DNA of 39,601 nucleotides, from the NCBI GenBank assembly GCA_012517875.1, contig JAAYUB010000051.1, positions 1 through 39,601 on the forward strand, in the 5' to 3' direction. The DNA comes from Acidobacteriota bacterium. Lineage in GTDB: Bacteria; Acidobacteriota; JAAYUB01. A model generated the notes under the pieces. That model made no database searches. It was not told the origin of the DNA and saw only the letters and a program-made list of their open reading frames with translations. This document shows positions 3,060-15,343 of the stretch, piece after piece. Position numbers and translations under genes: made by a program. Within the stretch, counting starts at the first letter, position 1. Each line of letters begins with the position of its first letter.

Positions 3060-6005
3060 TCACATCGTGGGGATGATGGCGATCATCTCGGGCGAGTTCT
3101 GGACCGACTTGGCCAGGAAGGGCCGGCCGTTGGTGCTGTGGGCCTTCATGTAGCCCACGAAGTCGTCCAGGCCGCCCGCGGGTCCGAAGATGTCCGGATC
3201 CCCGAGGAAGAACACGCGGGCGCCGAGGGGCGGCACGACGATGTCCGCCAGCGACACGGCCACCGGCAGGCCCTGGGGGTCGAGGATCTCCAGAGCCACG
3301 GTCACCGGTTCGTCCCCCGGGTTGTACAGAACGTAGGAAGTCTCGAACGGGGCGATGGTGATGGTATAGGGGAAGACCAGATCGAGCACGGCGTCGCTGT
3401 CCAGGGGGGTCGCGTCGGCGGCCATGTTCCGATACTGAAAGTAAGGAGGTATCGTGCCGGTCGCGTCCGGATCCGGGGGGTTCCACAACTGATACGAGAA
3501 CGCGCTGCAGACGTTGTCGTGGTCCACGGTCAGGACGATCGAGCCGGTGTGGAAGACGGTGTCGAACCGGTCGAGGTCGAGGGCGTCCTCCTCGGACAGG
3601 TACACTTCGAACCGCGACTGGTTGTCGAAATCGTACTCCCGCGTGGTCACCAGGTTGCCGTCGAAGTCGTAGAAATCCATCCGGACGTGGGTTTGCAGAA
3701 TCTCCGGGTCTTCCTCTTCCTCGTCCTCCTCGGCCACCCGTTCGTTGGAGCTGATCAGGATGACGGACGTGTCGAAGCCGTTGCCCACCGCGTAGTACGG
3801 CACATGGAACGTGTGCGAGGCGGACGGGAGCACCGGATTGAGCGGCGGGCACGTCATCACGAAGGAGTTGTCCGGATCGGTGTTCTCCATCGTCAGGTAC
3901 GCGTACGTGATCAGGTTGTCCAGGTTGAACAACCGCATATAGCCGTTGAACGGGAACTCGAGGAGGACCTGGTCGATGCCGCCCACTGAGGCGAGATCGA
4001 AGGAGGTGTTGCTGTCCGATACACCGGTGGGGTTGAAGAGGATGCGCTGGATCTTCATTTGGTTGTAGTACGGGTTGACGAAGTGGATGGTCGTCTCGAC
4101 CCGCTTGTCGGCGAGTTCGGACGTGGTGTTGCTGAAGGAGAACGGGAAGATGACGTCCTGGGCCATGGGCTGGTCGATCCGCAGGTAGTCGCCCCGGATA
4201 ATCGTGGCGCCGTCGTCGCCGATGGTGCCGTTGTAAATGAGCCCGGTCAGGGACAGCTCGGGGTGGACCGCCTTGATGAAGCCGTGCTGGTTGACCACCT
4301 TGTCATAGTCGGGGATCAGCTCCTTGACCATCTGGACGAGCTGCTCGCCCGGCTGCAGAGTCACATCCACGGGATCGATGATGTGGGCCACGTCGTCGTC
4401 GTCCACCCAGTAGAAAGGGAGCCCGGCGGCGCTGTCATCGTCCGAGTAGGACGTGTTGTTGGTCTGATACGACTGGAGGCCGAAGGTCACCGCCTCGTCC
4501 AGGAGGTTGATGAAGCTGACGGCGGAGAACCGCCCTTCCTCGAGGTTGACGCTGTACCCGCTGGAGAACACCGGCTTGCTCGGCTGGCCCACCACGCTGA
4601 TGGTCCCGGTCAGAAAGCTGGCGACGCAGAACCGGTCGGTGCCCGGCACCGCCGCCACGGCCACCGGAATCTCCCGCTGGCCGCCGTCGCCCAGGGGCAG
4701 CAGGCCGGTGGTGCTGACGCGGAAGTCCAGCGGCGCCCGGACCAGCGGCTCGTTGTCGGGGATGTCTTTGGTCGGCACATAGTTGCTGAATGACGGGAAT
4801 ACCAAATCGTAGGTGCCGTCAGGGTTCTCGAGGAAGGCCGTCTGCGTGGTCCGGGCCATGTTATATGTCTGCGCCTTGTACCGCAGGATCTTGTACAGCT
4901 CGAGGGACGGCCACTTGAAGACGGCCACGGTGGGGAACCCATAGTATTCCGAGTAGTTCACCGCATCGTGCGACGTGATCTGGACGCATAAGAATTCGCC
5001 GGTTGGATCCAAGAAGATGGCCGCCGGGTCGTTTTCCACGTAGAGGGTGATGTCCTTGCCGTTATCGTCCTTGATCTTCTGGCCGGTGGCGGGATCGAAC
5101 AGATACACCCGGTCGTTCAACAGGAAGGCGGAACCGGAACTCAGGCCCGCCGAGGCGATGAGGCCGATGGTGTCGTCCTCGCTCAGCAGCACGTTGTTCC
5201 GGAAGGTGAAATTGGCGATGTGATCGGCGACGGCTTCCGCGTCATGGAAGTTCACCTGGCGGCTCTCGGTGAATGTGGCGGTATCGATCACCGACACGTT
5301 ATCGCTGAACGAATTCACACTGCAGAGGAACGACCCGTCGTGGCTCATCGTCAGCCAGGTGGGGCCAACGGAGGTGTAGTAATACGGATTGGTCGAAACG
5401 ATCTTCAGCGCGCCGATGACGGTGTACGTGGCGGTGTCGATCTGGAGCACCTCGTCGCTCTGGGTGGCCGAGATATAAGCGCGGGAGGCGTCGGGTGCGA
5501 ACACCACGTTGCTGCCGAAACCAAAGACGTAATTCGGTGTCGCGATGGTCTGCACCACCTGCTGCGAGGCAACGTCGATCACCGCGATGGAACAGCTGGA
5601 GTTGAGGTTGAAAAACTTGCCCAGATTGACCACCCAGATTTCAGTCATGGCCGGATTGAAGAACATGAGCGCGGGCCGCTCGCCCACCGGGATGGCCTTG
5701 ACAATCCGCTGGGCGGGATCTTCGGCCAGCGGGCGGAAGACCAGCACGTAGCCCTGGTGCTCCTGGTTGGCGGCAATCGTGTAGTTCACGAAGCCGAACT
5801 GCCCATCCGGCGTCACCAGGATCGAGGGGGCGACGATGTCGTACTCGTTGATCCGGAAACTCAGCCCGAGCGACCGGACATCCGCCGGCGCGGTATCCGC
5901 GTTGGGATCGATGATGACCGCGTCATTCTGGGCGAACGCCATCCCGGCAAGCAGCAGCATCACCAGTCCCGCCGCCCGTACGCCCTTGCGAACCCACTGA
6001 GTCAT
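3060..6005 (-). CDS. Large secreted beta-propeller (YVTN/YncE-like) protein with C-terminal repeat modules
   Basis: This 981-residue protein has a signal peptide (residues 1-25, ending MAFAQ). Residues about 55-480 carry propeller-blade strands of the YVTN/YncE type, such as segments reading R-A-Y-I-S and V-L-Q-I-D-T-A-T, as in secreted seven-bladed propellers. The C-terminal 380 residues hold three copies of a ~100-residue beta module (F-P start, N-x-G/N-P turn, D-x-x-G hairpin) shared with the proteins starting at 26941, 29684 and 33309. One copy contains an acidic run of Glu/Asp near residue 755. The start at 6005 follows GGGAGG by five bases and an extended -10 at 6042-6050. Binding partner and function are unknown; a surface or extracellular scaffold role is inferred. 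Confidence 0.85.
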   Translation of the reverse strand: MTQWVRKGVRAAGLVMLLLAGMAFAQNDAVIIDPNADTAPADVRSLGLSFRINEYDIVAPSILVTPDGQFGFVNYTIAANQEHQGYVLVFRPLAEDPAQRIVKAIPVGERPALMFFNPAMTEIWVVNLGKFFNLNSSCSIAVIDVASQQVVQTIATPNYVFGFGSNVVFAPDASRAYISATQSDEVLQIDTATYTVIGALKIVSTNPYYYTSVGPTWLTMSHDGSFLCSVNSFSDNVSVIDTATFTESRQVNFHDAEAVADHIANFTFRNNVLLSEDDTIGLIASAGLSSGSAFLLNDRVYLFDPATGQKIKDDNGKDITLYVENDPAAIFLDPTGEFLCVQITSHDAVNYSEYYGFPTVAVFKWPSLELYKILRYKAQTYNMARTTQTAFLENPDGTYDLVFPSFSNYVPTKDIPDNEPLVRAPLDFRVSTTGLLPLGDGGQREIPVAVAAVPGTDRFCVASFLTGTISVVGQPSKPVFSSGYSVNLEEGRFSAVSFINLLDEAVTFGLQSYQTNNTSYSDDDSAAGLPFYWVDDDDVAHIIDPVDVTLQPGEQLVQMVKELIPDYDKVVNQHGFIKAVHPELSLTGLIYNGTIGDDGATIIRGDYLRIDQPMAQDVIFPFSFSNTTSELADKRVETTIHFVNPYYNQMKIQRILFNPTGVSDSNTSFDLASVGGIDQVLLEFPFNGYMRLFNLDNLITYAYLTMENTDPDNSFVMTCPPLNPVLPSASHTFHVPYYAVGNGFDTSVILISSNERVAEEDEEEEDPEILQTHVRMDFYDFDGNLVTTREYDFDNQSRFEVYLSEEDALDLDRFDTVFHTGSIVLTVDHDNVCSAFSYQLWNPPDPDATGTIPPYFQYRNMAADATPLDSDAVLDLVFPYTITIAPFETSYVLYNPGDEPVTVALEILDPQGLPVAVSLADIVVPPLGARVFFLGDPDIFGPAGGLDDFVGYMKAHSTNGRPFLAKSVQNSPEMIAIIPTM

Positions 6006-11209: not shown

Positions 11210-13411
11210 TCAGGCTTTCAGGCTGATGCGCAGCTTCTCCAGCTCTTCCCGGAGAAAGTCCCGCTGGGCGATGAGTTCGCCGGACACCTTCTCCCGGAAA
11301 TAATCTTCGGACCGCTTGATCTGGTTTTCCAGGATCTCGTAAAAATTCCGCTGGTTGGCGGCGGTGTTGAGGATTTCTTTGTTATACAGGATGATGTCGG
11401 ACACGATGACCCGCGCCAGGCGTTGGGCTTTGCGCTGGGCGGGATCGAGCTCCTCCACTTTTGCTTCGGCGGCGGGGGCGATGGTGCCCTCCTCGACCAC
11501 CTCATACACCGTGTCCCGTGACGTGAGCAGCACGGGCGGCGCCTCCGCAGCGGCGCGTTCCAACCGGCCCAGTTCCTCTTCGATGGCGGATTTTTCCTCC
11601 CGCGCCGCGGTTAGACGCTGCTTCGCCTCCAGCAGTTTCGTTTTCTCGGCCGCGGCGGCCTGGTCGCGCTTCTCGCGGGCGGCTTGCGCCTCCGCCATCT
11701 CGTTCCGCGTCTGCTCCAGTCTCTGCCGCAGGGCATCCTTCTGTTCCTGCACCTCACGGAGCTCGGCTTCCAGCTCCGTCACCCGGCGGGCTGCGGCTTT
11801 CTGCTCCTGGGCCGATTGTTCAGCCGCCTCCTCGGCCACGCGCAACTCCTCGACCGCCTGCTCCAGCTCCTGCAACAGGGTGTCCCGCTCCTGGCTGGAC
11901 GCGGCGAGCTGCTGCTCGATGGCCGCGGCGGCCTTGGCCGGCGACCGCTCAGCCGTCACCGCCTTGAGCTGGCGGTCCAGTTCCTCGCGCTGGGCGGCCA
12001 ACTCCGCTCGACGCGCCTTGAGCTGTCCGATCTCCTCCTGGACACTGGCGAGACCCTCCTGGATCATCCGCAGATTGTCGTCGCCTTCGGCGAGATGCGC
12101 CTGTTTGTCCGCCAGCTCCTGTCTGGCCATTTCGAGGAGCTGCTTTTCTTCGTCAAGTTTCTCCTCGAGATGGCCGCGCTCCTCCAGGAGCACGCGGAGC
12201 TCCTCTTCGAGTTCCTCGAGCCGCTGGGCATCGGAGACCGAGCTGTCCTCACGGGTCTTCCGCTCGTTTTCCAGCGCCCCCTGGGCCTTGCCCACCTCAT
12301 CGATCTCCGCGCGCAAGGCATCCAGGGCGCGGTGGACCGCTTCGATTTCACCCTCCAGCCGGGTGATCTGGGCCTGAGAATCCTTCCGGGATTTCTCGGA
12401 CATGGCGATGTCGTCGGCCAGGCGGCCCTTCTGGCGCAGGGCGGTCTTGAGCTGCTGGTCAAGGCCGTCGCGTTCCTGTTCGATGCTTTGAAGCGACGCC
12501 TGCAGGCTCTCGACGGTGGACTCTGTTTCCTCCTTCTCCTTGCGAACGCTCGCGAGGGCCTCCCGCAGCGCGGCTTTCTCCTCCTCGACATCCTGGATCT
12601 GGCTCTCCAGGCCCGATTTGGCCTCCATGGTGCTCTGGATCTTCTCTTCCATCAGCGAGATCTGGGCTTCGAGATTCTGCCGCGACGCGTTGACGGAGTC
12701 GATCTCGCGCTCCAGCATCTCCTTCTCGGCCTGCACCTTCCGGCGCAGCTCGACGGACTTATCCCGGGTCCGCTGGATCTCCTCGAACTGGTTCTCCAGG
12801 ACCGCGAGGCGCGTCTCCTTCTGCTTCTTCACGCCCTCCACCTGGATCAGGATCTGGCGGGTGCGGGCGATATAGCCACGGATCTCATCCGAAAGATCCA
12901 GCGATTTTTCACGGATCAGGCCCAGGAGCGTCTCGAGGTCGGCGGGATGTGAGGCGGACTCCACCAGGTTGATTTCCGACGCCAGCAACTCGTCGATCTC
13001 ATCGAGGGTCTTGCGCTTGTCCTTGCCGGCCAGCACGTCGAACGCCTGCCCCAGAATGCCCTGCGTCTGCCGCAGGTCGTCGAAGATCTGGCGGTCCTTC
13101 TCGCCGAATTCGGCGGTCAGCTTCTGGATGCGCTCGAAGTCATCGAGCACCTGTTGGCGCACGTTCATCATCTCGCGCCACACCGCCTGCACCTGCTGCC
13201 GTTCGTCGGCCAGCACCTGCGCTCGCTGTGACTGGGGCTGCGGCGCGGCCGCCGCCGGTTCCGGAAGCACCGGCGGTTCGCCGGCGGACGGTTCAGCCAG
13301 GATGATCTCCTGCGGCTTCTCCGGAGAGACGGCCGGGGCCGCTTCGGCCGCCTGGGTGATGGACAGCGGTTTTTCATCCGCCTTCTTCAAGAGCTTTTTG
13401 AAAAAACCCAT
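11210..13411 (-). CDS. Long coiled-coil protein with conserved C-terminal helical domain
   Basis: This 733-residue protein has no signal peptide and no membrane segment. It starts with a basic amphipathic N-terminus (MGFFKKLLKKADEK). A Pro/Ala-rich linker to about residue 70 follows, then an almost unbroken Glu/Gln/Lys/Arg-rich heptad coiled coil to about residue 650. The last 70 residues form a distinct helical piece beginning R-L-A-R-V-I-V-S-D-I and containing L-Y-N, a motif I associate with C-termini of assorted delta-proteobacterial and acidobacterial proteins of unknown function. The role may be structural or cytoskeleton-like, by inference only. The ATG at 13411 follows GGAAGGA; an upstream in-frame TTG at 13474 overlaps the promoter and is rejected. 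Confidence 0.82.
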   Translation of the reverse strand: MGFFKKLLKKADEKPLSITQAAEAAPAVSPEKPQEIILAEPSAGEPPVLPEPAAAAPQPQSQRAQVLADERQQVQAVWREMMNVRQQVLDDFERIQKLTAEFGEKDRQIFDDLRQTQGILGQAFDVLAGKDKRKTLDEIDELLASEINLVESASHPADLETLLGLIREKSLDLSDEIRGYIARTRQILIQVEGVKKQKETRLAVLENQFEEIQRTRDKSVELRRKVQAEKEMLEREIDSVNASRQNLEAQISLMEEKIQSTMEAKSGLESQIQDVEEEKAALREALASVRKEKEETESTVESLQASLQSIEQERDGLDQQLKTALRQKGRLADDIAMSEKSRKDSQAQITRLEGEIEAVHRALDALRAEIDEVGKAQGALENERKTREDSSVSDAQRLEELEEELRVLLEERGHLEEKLDEEKQLLEMARQELADKQAHLAEGDDNLRMIQEGLASVQEEIGQLKARRAELAAQREELDRQLKAVTAERSPAKAAAAIEQQLAASSQERDTLLQELEQAVEELRVAEEAAEQSAQEQKAAARRVTELEAELREVQEQKDALRQRLEQTRNEMAEAQAAREKRDQAAAAEKTKLLEAKQRLTAAREEKSAIEEELGRLERAAAEAPPVLLTSRDTVYEVVEEGTIAPAAEAKVEELDPAQRKAQRLARVIVSDIILYNKEILNTAANQRNFYEILENQIKRSEDYFREKVSGELIAQRDFLREELEKLRISLKA

Positions 13412-13445
13412 GGCGCGTCCTTCCAGAAAGTGTTCAGATGCCGCT

Positions 13446-13474
13446 AGAATAACGACAATGGCCGGTAAAGACAA
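13446..13474 (-). promoter_or_regulatory. Promoter of the coiled-coil protein gene
   Basis: On the minus strand TTGTCT (13469-13474), a 17-base spacer and TATTCT (13446-13451) give a start near 13439 and a leader of about 28 nt. Confidence 0.55.
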
Positions 13475-13484
13475 CAGAAAACTT

Positions 13485-13499
13485 GACGCTGCAAGCGTC
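13485..13499. promoter_or_regulatory. 15-bp palindrome GACGCT-N3-AGCGTC, possible operator
   Basis: This perfect 6-3-6 inverted repeat lies between the divergent promoters at 13446-13474 (minus) and 13513-13540 (plus), eleven bases behind the minus -35. Position and symmetry suit a regulator-binding site; no regulator is identified. Confidence 0.35.
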
Positions 13500-13512
13500 C
13501 CAACAAAAGGAC

Positions 13513-13540
13513 TTGATTTTTAATCAAAAGCCCTTATTAT
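13513..13540 (+). promoter_or_regulatory. Promoter of the candidate small RNA, with overlapping palindrome
   Basis: TTGATT (13513-13518), a 16-base spacer and TATTAT (13535-13540) predict a transcript start near 13546. The -35 is half of a perfect palindrome, TTGATT-TTT-AATCAA (13513-13527), which could be an operator. Confidence 0.5.
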
Positions 13541-13545
13541 AGATT

Positions 13546-13614
13546 CAGAGTCTTCCCCCTATACTTTGCAACACGCTCCGGATAGTTCCCCCCTTACCTA
13601 TCCGGAGTTTTTTT
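13546..13614 (+). ncRNA. Candidate small RNA with two C-rich loops (6C-like), ending in a terminator
   Basis: Hairpin 1 pairs CAGAGT (13546-13551) with ACTTTG (13563-13568), including one G-U pair, and its 11-base loop holds five Cs. After a 7-base linker, hairpin 2 pairs ten perfect bases (13576-13585 with 13598-13607); its 12-base loop holds six Cs and seven Ts follow (13608-13614). A promoter sits directly upstream. Both neighbouring genes are on the minus strand, so this plus-strand terminator serves no protein gene. The layout of two hairpins with C-run loops, the second a terminator, resembles the actinobacterial 6C RNA, whose C loops pair with G-rich ribosome sites. The resemblance is architectural; homology is not shown. 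The remaining stretch 13615-13813 shows nothing I can support. Confidence 0.5.
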
Positions 13615-13813
13615 CGACATCTTCGTCATTTCGAAAACCCGCCGGGCATGGTCGGATCGCGGGGGAGGAATCCAGTCGCGCCGGGGGGCTTGGGAAATTT
13701 CAGGCCGGGGCGCGACTGCACACATGCAAACACCACCACGTCGCGGCACCGGTCCGGCCTGACCGGCCCAGGACGGCGGCCGGTAGGCGCCGGTTGCAGG
13801 GCCGGTCGCCGGA

Positions 13814-15343
13814 TCAGGCCGATGGCGCCTTGGCCGGGGAGGAGATTGAAGCCGGACGGGGCTCGCGCCGGGCCATGATTTTCTGGTAGAGCTCCACATA
13901 CCGGCGGGCCGACCTTCGCCACGAAAAGTCCTGCCGCATGCCGTTCCGCATCAGGCGCGTCCAGATGCGCCGGTCGGGGTAGAGGTAAGTGGCCAGGTCA
14001 ATCTGCTCCAGCAGGGCCTGGCTGGAATAAGCGGAAAAGACGAAACCGGTCCCCCGCCCGGTATCCGGCTGGAACGACGTGACCGTATCGGCCAGACCGC
14101 CGGTGGCGCGGACGATGGGCACCGTACCGTAGCGCAGGCTGTACATCTGGTTCAGGCCGCACGGCTCGAATCGGGACGGCATCAGGAACAGGTCGCTGCC
14201 CGCCTCAATGAGATGCGCCAGCCGGTTGTCGAAGCCGATCCGAACGCCCAGGAATCCGGGATGGCGGCGCTGCGCGTCGAGCAGCTGCTCGTGGTAGCGC
14301 GGCAGGCCCGTTCCCAGAATGACCAGGTACAGACCCATCCCGGCAAGCTCGTCAAGCAGCGGCATCACCAGGTCCAGCCCCTTCTGGTCCACCAGGCGGC
14401 CCACCATGCCGATCACCGGGCGGTCCGGCTCCACCGCCGCGAAACCATAGGTCTCGAGCAGGACCTGCTTGTTCGCGCGCTTGCCGGCCAGGTCGTCCAG
14501 GCTGAAGCGGTGCGGGATGAGGCTGTCCGTCTCGGGATTCCACTCGTCGTAATCGACCCCGTTCAGGACGCCGTAGACGTCCGCGGCGCGCTGCCGCAAG
14601 ACGCCTTCCAGACCGCAGCCGTATTCCGACGACTCCTGGATCTCCTGGGCGTAGCGTACGCTCACCGTGTTGATCAGGTCGGCGAAGTGGATGCCGATCT
14701 TCAGGAAGTTCACCTGCCCGTAGTATTCGAACGGGCTGTAGGGAACGCTCATGCGCTCGGGGATCCCCAGCGCCGGCAGCACGGTGGCTGGATACAGGCC
14801 GGGATAGGCGATATTGTGGATGGTGAGCAGGGTGCCCGGCCGCCGGGACGTCAGCGGGTCGGCGTCGGCCTCCCGCAAAGCCAGCAGGGCCGGCAGGGTC
14901 GCGGTGTGGCTGTCGTGGCAGTGGATGATGTCCACATCCGGCTTGACCTGATCCAGGTATTCCAAGCAGGTCCGGACGAAGCCGATGAACCGGTACGCGC
15001 CGTCGACGTACTCCTCACCGGTGGCCGGGTCGGTGTAGATGCCGTCGCGCTGGAAGAAGTGGGGGTTGTCCACGAGGAAGACCGGGACATCCGCACCGGG
15101 CAGGCGGGTGCGCCACACCGTCACCGGATGCACGCCGCCGGGCCCCAGGTCGATCTTCGTCCCGAACACCTTGACCGGCGGCTCCGGCAGCTTGCTCCGG
15201 TCGATCTGGCCGTAAGCCGGCGTCATGACGGACACCCGGACGCCCTCGGCCACCAGCGCCCGCGGCAGCGCGCCCACCACGTCGGCCAGCCCGCCCACCT
15301 TCGACAGCGGCACGACTTCGGCTGATACCATCAGGACATCCAT
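13814..15343 (-). CDS. glgA: Glycogen synthase (GT5)
   Basis: This 509-residue enzyme transfers glucose from ADP- or UDP-glucose onto alpha-1,4-glucan. It has the two-domain GT-B fold. The N-terminal K-V-G-G-L-A-D-V motif contains Lys15, the nucleotide-sugar contact, at the same residue number as in E. coli GlgA. The C-terminal domain has the P-S-R-F-E-P-C-G-L-N-Q motif with the catalytic Glu pair, and the T-G-G-L-A-D-T-V loop. The ATG at 15343 gives the canonical N-terminus and has GGAGA about six bases upstream. It is the last gene of a four-gene minus-strand operon, 14 bases after the galT-like gene. The C-terminus is slightly longer than in E. coli (477 residues). Confidence 0.95.
   Translation of the reverse strand: MDVLMVSAEVVPLSKVGGLADVVGALPRALVAEGVRVSVMTPAYGQIDRSKLPEPPVKVFGTKIDLGPGGVHPVTVWRTRLPGADVPVFLVDNPHFFQRDGIYTDPATGEEYVDGAYRFIGFVRTCLEYLDQVKPDVDIIHCHDSHTATLPALLALREADADPLTSRRPGTLLTIHNIAYPGLYPATVLPALGIPERMSVPYSPFEYYGQVNFLKIGIHFADLINTVSVRYAQEIQESSEYGCGLEGVLRQRAADVYGVLNGVDYDEWNPETDSLIPHRFSLDDLAGKRANKQVLLETYGFAAVEPDRPVIGMVGRLVDQKGLDLVMPLLDELAGMGLYLVILGTGLPRYHEQLLDAQRRHPGFLGVRIGFDNRLAHLIEAGSDLFLMPSRFEPCGLNQMYSLRYGTVPIVRATGGLADTVTSFQPDTGRGTGFVFSAYSSQALLEQIDLATYLYPDRRIWTRLMRNGMRQDFSWRRSARRYVELYQKIMARREPRPASISSPAKAPSA

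Follow-up and report, generated by a model that had tools for sequence, protein, structure and literature searches.

The segment at positions 13513-13614 of the window, i.e. the whole 39,601-nucleotide stretch of acidobacterial DNA analyzed here, is, as judged from its sequence and its conservation, a gene for a small RNA (sRNA) and not a product of chance. The best explanation, and one that we consider probable, is that it encodes a trans-acting antisense sRNA whose 5' end acts as a seed that pairs with mRNA-leader sites of the GGGGGAAGAC type. This orphan gene is a member of a previously undescribed family, limited here to one acidobacterial family; in the literature searched, no published description of the sRNA was found. 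Regulatory sRNAs of uncultured Acidobacteriota are nearly undescribed, and as its promoter, ends, seed, copies and candidate targets are defined, the sRNA is directly testable by reporter assays.

Transcript layout and conservation

All elements of the gene are read on the plus strand. The promoter is sigma-70-like, with the -35 hexamer TTGATT (13513-13518; 100% kept in both congeners), a 16-nt spacer and the -10 hexamer TATTAT (13535-13540); this promoter (13513-13540) is the sole match within 13300-13950, where 0.2 are expected. It is followed by a weak hairpin 1 (13546-13568; arms 13546-13551 and 13563-13568) with the loop CTTCCCCCTAT, a 7-nt linker (CAACACG) and an intrinsic terminator (13576-13614), which consists of a perfect 10-bp stem (arms 13576-13585 and 13598-13607), the loop TTCCCCCCTTAC and seven Ts (13608-13614). 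Direct reading places each of these parts exactly where the preliminary description had put them. Its statement that both flanking genes lie on the other strand also holds: they are a coiled-coil ORF (11210-13474) and glgA, with its end at 13814, both on the minus strand. Start and stop deduced from the sequence delimit a transcript of about 68 nt (~13547-13614). The proposed orphan sRNA gene, about 70 nt long, with its own terminator and outside Actinobacteria, is borne out by the relatives holding the same RNA, which are Acidobacteria/Acidobacteriota metagenome-assembled genomes and in which the transcript is conserved. An own promoter, an own terminator and no conserved reading frame are the marks of a trans-acting antisense sRNA, and all three are found here.

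For the 71-nt segment, the predicted folding energy is -19.4 kcal/mol (z = -5.6), a value that none of 200 shuffles equals. The likely start is A13547, 7 nt past the -10 hexamer, which leaves five weak pairs in hairpin 1; when the RNA is folded from this nucleotide, hairpin 1 is only about half formed. Hairpin 2 is the only solid structure. Loop 1 contains five C and loop 2 contains six. The conserved 5' seed AGAGTCTTCCCCCTA (13547-13561), which is kept in all copies and has complements in gene leaders, is the probable antisense region. An inverted repeat, TTGATT-TTT-AATCAA (13513-13527), overlaps the -35 hexamer; it is kept in the genus and absent from the second genus, and it resembles FNR-type half-sites, but with a gap of 5 nt instead of 4 nt, so that it might represent an operator.

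Conservation was assessed in four genomes, two of which are close congeners (G001 and G002) of the window's own 4.0-Mb draft genome (G000), and one of which represents a second genus (G003). Positions 13547-13614 are identical in G001 and G002 (68/68), whereas the stretch directly downstream agrees at just 67-82%. For G003, 67 of 69 transcript positions are identical, while the promoter and the upstream and downstream stretches reach 41-53%, compared with 45% for shuffled sequence. The promoter hexamers nevertheless hold their position although the surrounding sequence changed; the second genus has TTGCAT as the counterpart hexamer. Because the terminator loop of G003 carries a one-base insertion, a conserved reading frame is excluded, and the resulting frame shift rules out a small protein.

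Beyond these relatives, two models of the RNA, R1 and R2, were run against 396 genomes of the phylum. Outside the family they returned marginal matches only, with E-values of 0.0015-0.1 per genome, in line with expectation for a search of this size. The top match among them shows a UCCGGA terminator and a C-rich stretch, yet no clear promoter. This locus of a distant acidobacterium (L205 in G349, 1501-1561) consists of CUCUUCCCCCUCCCUCC and then a UCCGGAGCACCCC-stem terminator; its R2 match is marginal (E 0.0015 per genome) and its kinship unproven. When 84,980 species were scanned with a gapped pattern, 25 stretches were obtained, among which the three known relatives are the only real ones; most of the others are without the terminator layout. 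Candidates with a similar 15-mer in two further genomes (G004 and G005) were discarded for want of a terminator, and no match was obtained from the viral contigs searched.

Gene copies in the second genus

G000, G001 and G002 contain a single copy each, and G003 four clear copies in total. The extra ones, at C84:188-248, C80:1231-1291 and C80:730-790, score 72.8-79.8 bits with R2, scores that are not independent, as these three copies served to build that model. R1, built solely from the window-type RNA, found two of them (E 2e-4 and 0.025 per genome), and a 15-mer search recovered all three independently of R2. The C80 array also contains two weaker, degraded copies (1740-1800 and 2480-2541). 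Each of the three clear extra copies shows TTGACA, 17-18 nt, a -10 hexamer, 6-9 nt, AGAGTCT and the UCCGGA-stem terminator; across all four G003 copies the promoters read TTGCAT or TTGACA, a 17-18-nt spacer, and TATATA, TAGAAA, TACTAT or TATGAT at the same place.

What is kept across copies is the 5'-end sequence AGAGUCUNCNCCC, followed by the UCCGGA-stem terminator, and the invariant part of the alignment is the 5' sequence. The view of the 5' end as the pairing region is supported by this comparison. All three G003 paralogues lack the 9 nt making up the 3' arm of hairpin 1; hence, hairpin 1 is not a family feature. Two pairs of the terminator stem are changed on both sides in paralogues (C-G to A-U and U-A to C-G), which is modest evidence, as this covariation comes from five sequences and does not exceed every shuffle. 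An alignment of relatives had been suggested as a check on both stems and both C loops: the terminator stem came through it with compensatory changes, while hairpin 1 and one C-run of loop 2, that of the C84 copy, are lost in paralogues. Directly downstream of the C84 copy (L107, 1-110) lie short tandem repeats (CAAGCATCCTGCTTGCAATCCCTCAAGCTGGAAGCTTGAACTACCGTGG) that resemble repetitive extragenic palindromes.

The copies also bear on the interpretation that the sRNA is a cis-acting antisense RNA to the neighboring coiled-coil gene, overlapping the 5' leader of its mRNA. In all four genomes, from both genera, this gene starts about 70-130 nt from the sRNA on the other strand, and the minus strand over the shared -10 hexamer also reads TATAAT. 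Yet there is no good minus-strand -35 hexamer upstream of the sRNA, and the copies on C80 and C84 have kept the seed without being located beside the coiled-coil gene. We therefore judge cis-action distinctly unlikely.

The array on C80 (L106, 700-2600, minus strand) is a separate observation: sRNA copies alternate with small DUF1488-like ORFs, and the seeds and the leaders adjacent downstream appear to change together. Three ORFs of about 100 aa each are interleaved with the copies; DUF1488 is matched above the cut-off by one of them and below the cut-off by another, and the third is without a Pfam match, though its layout is similar. Immediately behind an sRNA terminator starts the leader of one DUF1488 ORF; this leader includes GGGGGAAGAC, and its ribosome site GGAGGACUCUAUG is also able to pair with AGAGUCUUCC, with one G-U pair. 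The second copy carries the seed GUCUACACCC, and GGGGAGUAGAC is found in the sequence past its terminator. Cognate duplexes of copy and leader are predicted at -19.7 and -17.9 kcal/mol versus -13.8 and -13.1 kcal/mol for the crossed combinations (shuffles: 19/2000 and 11/2000). Since no reading frame follows the second copy, this second seed-leader pair may be a decayed module. A possible, still doubtful, interpretation is that each copy's seed co-evolved with the leader just downstream (GUCUUCCCC with GGGGGAAGAC, GUCUACACCC with GGGGAGUAGAC), i.e. that these are diverging sRNA-target pairs born by duplication, of which the window gene would be a stand-alone trans-acting member. If confirmed, the tandem copies and their matching leaders would show sRNA-target pairs arising and diverging through duplication.

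Candidate targets of the 5' end

According to the mechanism we propose, the sRNA would have a sigma-70-type promoter of its own, with transcription beginning near A13547 and stopping at the hairpin ending at 13614. Its working part would be the 5'-end AGAGUCUUCCCCC, which would base-pair with GGGGGAAGAC(UC) sites in mRNA leaders and block translation where the site overlaps the ribosome-binding region; the UCCGGA-stem terminator would provide the 3' end and stability. Hfq may assist pairing, and its domain (PF17209) is found above its cut-off in G000-G004.

In the three congeners, the 10-mer GTCTTCCCCC is present 39 times and its reversed control 12 times, counts that take in orthologues and the three sRNA genes; the corresponding numbers for G003 are 14 and 16. 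When sites were read in context, about ten independent ones turned out to be situated in the leaders of real genes, the mRNA carrying the G-rich strand, and among the seed-complement sites read none is found in a leader with reversed orientation; for the control motif, about one leader site is seen in each orientation. Two of the candidate targets are outer-membrane receptors that combine CarboxypepD_reg and beta-barrel domains. Three come from a single G001 locus, namely a MacB/FtsX permease, an ABC ATPase and a LytTR regulator. The others are a carboxymuconolactone decarboxylase; an exported protein with a methyltransferase domain, whose site is kept in two species; the DUF1488 gene beside an sRNA copy in the relative; and two genes of unknown family. 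At four of these genes (LytTR, MacB permease, methyltransferase and a gene on G003:C112) the site occupies the ribosome-binding position, the start codon following 11-14 nt after the site start. The receptor sites are 110-130 nt upstream of the start codon, and only two of about five checkable outer-membrane receptors of this class in G000 have one. The main candidates are envelope genes, namely those for outer-membrane beta-barrel receptors, MacB/ABC export proteins and the LytTR regulator.

Seed complements of at least 8 nt weakly exceed those of shuffled seeds in samples of gene starts: 51 of 300 shuffles reach the observed value in G000 (428 genes) and 41 of 300 in G001 (269 genes), the latter sample being non-random, as it included a region chosen for having sites. 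Purine-rich leaders favor such matches. The target evidence for the 5' seed is suggestive only. Repression of envelope genes, brought about by the sRNA covering their leaders or ribosome sites and perhaps involving Hfq, is what we infer, as we do the direction of regulation and the physiological role.

Two further matches were set aside. A sequence on G000:C77 was considered as a paralogous sRNA gene, but it has no terminator; we interpret it as the leader of a receptor gene containing a complement of 24 positions, one mismatch and two G-U pairs included. A seed complement near 13661, downstream of the gene itself, is weak (38/1000 shuffles) and absent in G001. Beside the seed-complement site in an outer-membrane receptor leader (L035 and L036, ~3120-3135) we noticed a perfect palindrome, CCAAAATTTTGG, possibly a regulator site; G001 has a second copy further upstream.

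Within 7 kb, one locus of G001 (L200 on C153, 9700-16530) has GGGGGAAGAC four times, with three of these sites belonging to gene leaders; it codes for export (MacB/ABC), LytTR and a two-component regulator. Such clustering in an export/two-component locus would favor an interpretation without an RNA regulator, the segment being a DNA element or leftover terminator and GGGGGAAGAC a transcription-factor site common to this locus and other promoters. Against this stand the conservation of the entire transcript, terminator and loop 2 included, the covarying terminator stem and the single orientation of the leader sites, and we regard it as highly improbable.

The preliminary description had assigned the contact with G-rich ribosome sites to the C loops. 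Complements in the leaders of several genes do exist for the 5' seed, while loop 2 is not supported as a second seed: complements of at least 8 nt occur in 0 of 428 leaders in G000, where 5 are expected from shuffles. An RNA in which both C-rich loops jointly bind G-rich ribosome sites, as in 6C or LhrC, would fit the two C-runs exposed in the fold and the UCCC motifs that Listeria LhrC uses in loop, linker and terminator loop (PMC4132741). We consider it unlikely given the null result for loop 2, the terminator loop without a C-run in the C84 copy and the ribosome sites of the genome, which read AGGAGG and match either C-run poorly. Because of this last property, a general anti-Shine-Dalgarno action of the C-runs is unlikely and the role unsupported.

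Comparison with known RNA families

The conserved RNA is, on present sequence comparisons, not the actinobacterial 6C RNA. A 6C RNA has two stem-loops, in each of which six C are typical (PMC4046766); the distribution of these RNAs is Actinobacteria-specific (PMC9569102). The likeness consists in a small, orphan, terminator-ended RNA with C-runs (PMC4046766, PMC8628891, PMC9569102); the differences are the five C in loop 1, paralogues without hairpin 1, a source in Acidobacteriota instead of Actinobacteria, and the lack of a covariance-model match. The suggested kinship with 6C is not supported, and the two-hairpin plan of 6C is not the part of the RNA that has been conserved: the Rfam scan of the window at the gathering score gave no 6C match, and 6C is not among the matches for 13350-13750 up to E=10. 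No Rfam family could be assigned to the sRNA in these scans. Two candidate noncoding RNAs have been described from Acidobacteria, Acido-1 and Acido-Lenti-1 (RF01686, RF01687; PMC2864571). Neither family matches within the window. A 6C-like layout was encountered in an alphaproteobacterium, Magnetospirillum fulvum (L054, 7803-7875, minus strand), as an intergenic element without relation to the sRNA; it has two hairpins with C6 loops, of which the second is a terminator: GACCGTC-TTCCCCCCA-GACGGTTC; CCCTCGCG-TTCCCCCC-GGCGCGAGGG-TTTTT.

RybB, MicA and OmrA/B are Hfq-class sRNAs that repress outer-membrane proteins by means of a 5'-end seed and end in an intrinsic terminator. The acidobacterial sRNA resembles them in its 5'-end seed, its terminator, its duplicated copies and the envelope genes among its candidate targets; it differs in the phylum and in the lack of sequence kinship, and its dependence on Hfq is putative.

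We class the sRNA as a new family of a known kind, the trans-acting C-rich antisense sRNAs. Listeria LhrC is a multicopy RNA of this style (111-114 nt, five near-identical copies, CUCCC motifs), whose C-rich motifs, placed in a loop, a linker and the terminator loop, block the ribosome site of lapB (PMC4132741). Common features are several copies in one genome (four clear ones in G003), C-rich motifs in the 5' loop and the terminator loop, and an Hfq that is present but possibly dispensable (PMC4132741). LhrC blocks the ribosome site of an envelope-protein mRNA, whereas the same action is only presumed here; there is no sequence relation and no Rfam match, and the conserved part of the acidobacterial RNA is the 5' end, not the loops. 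By analogy, LhrC is the nearest known system in working style, although unrelated by sequence.
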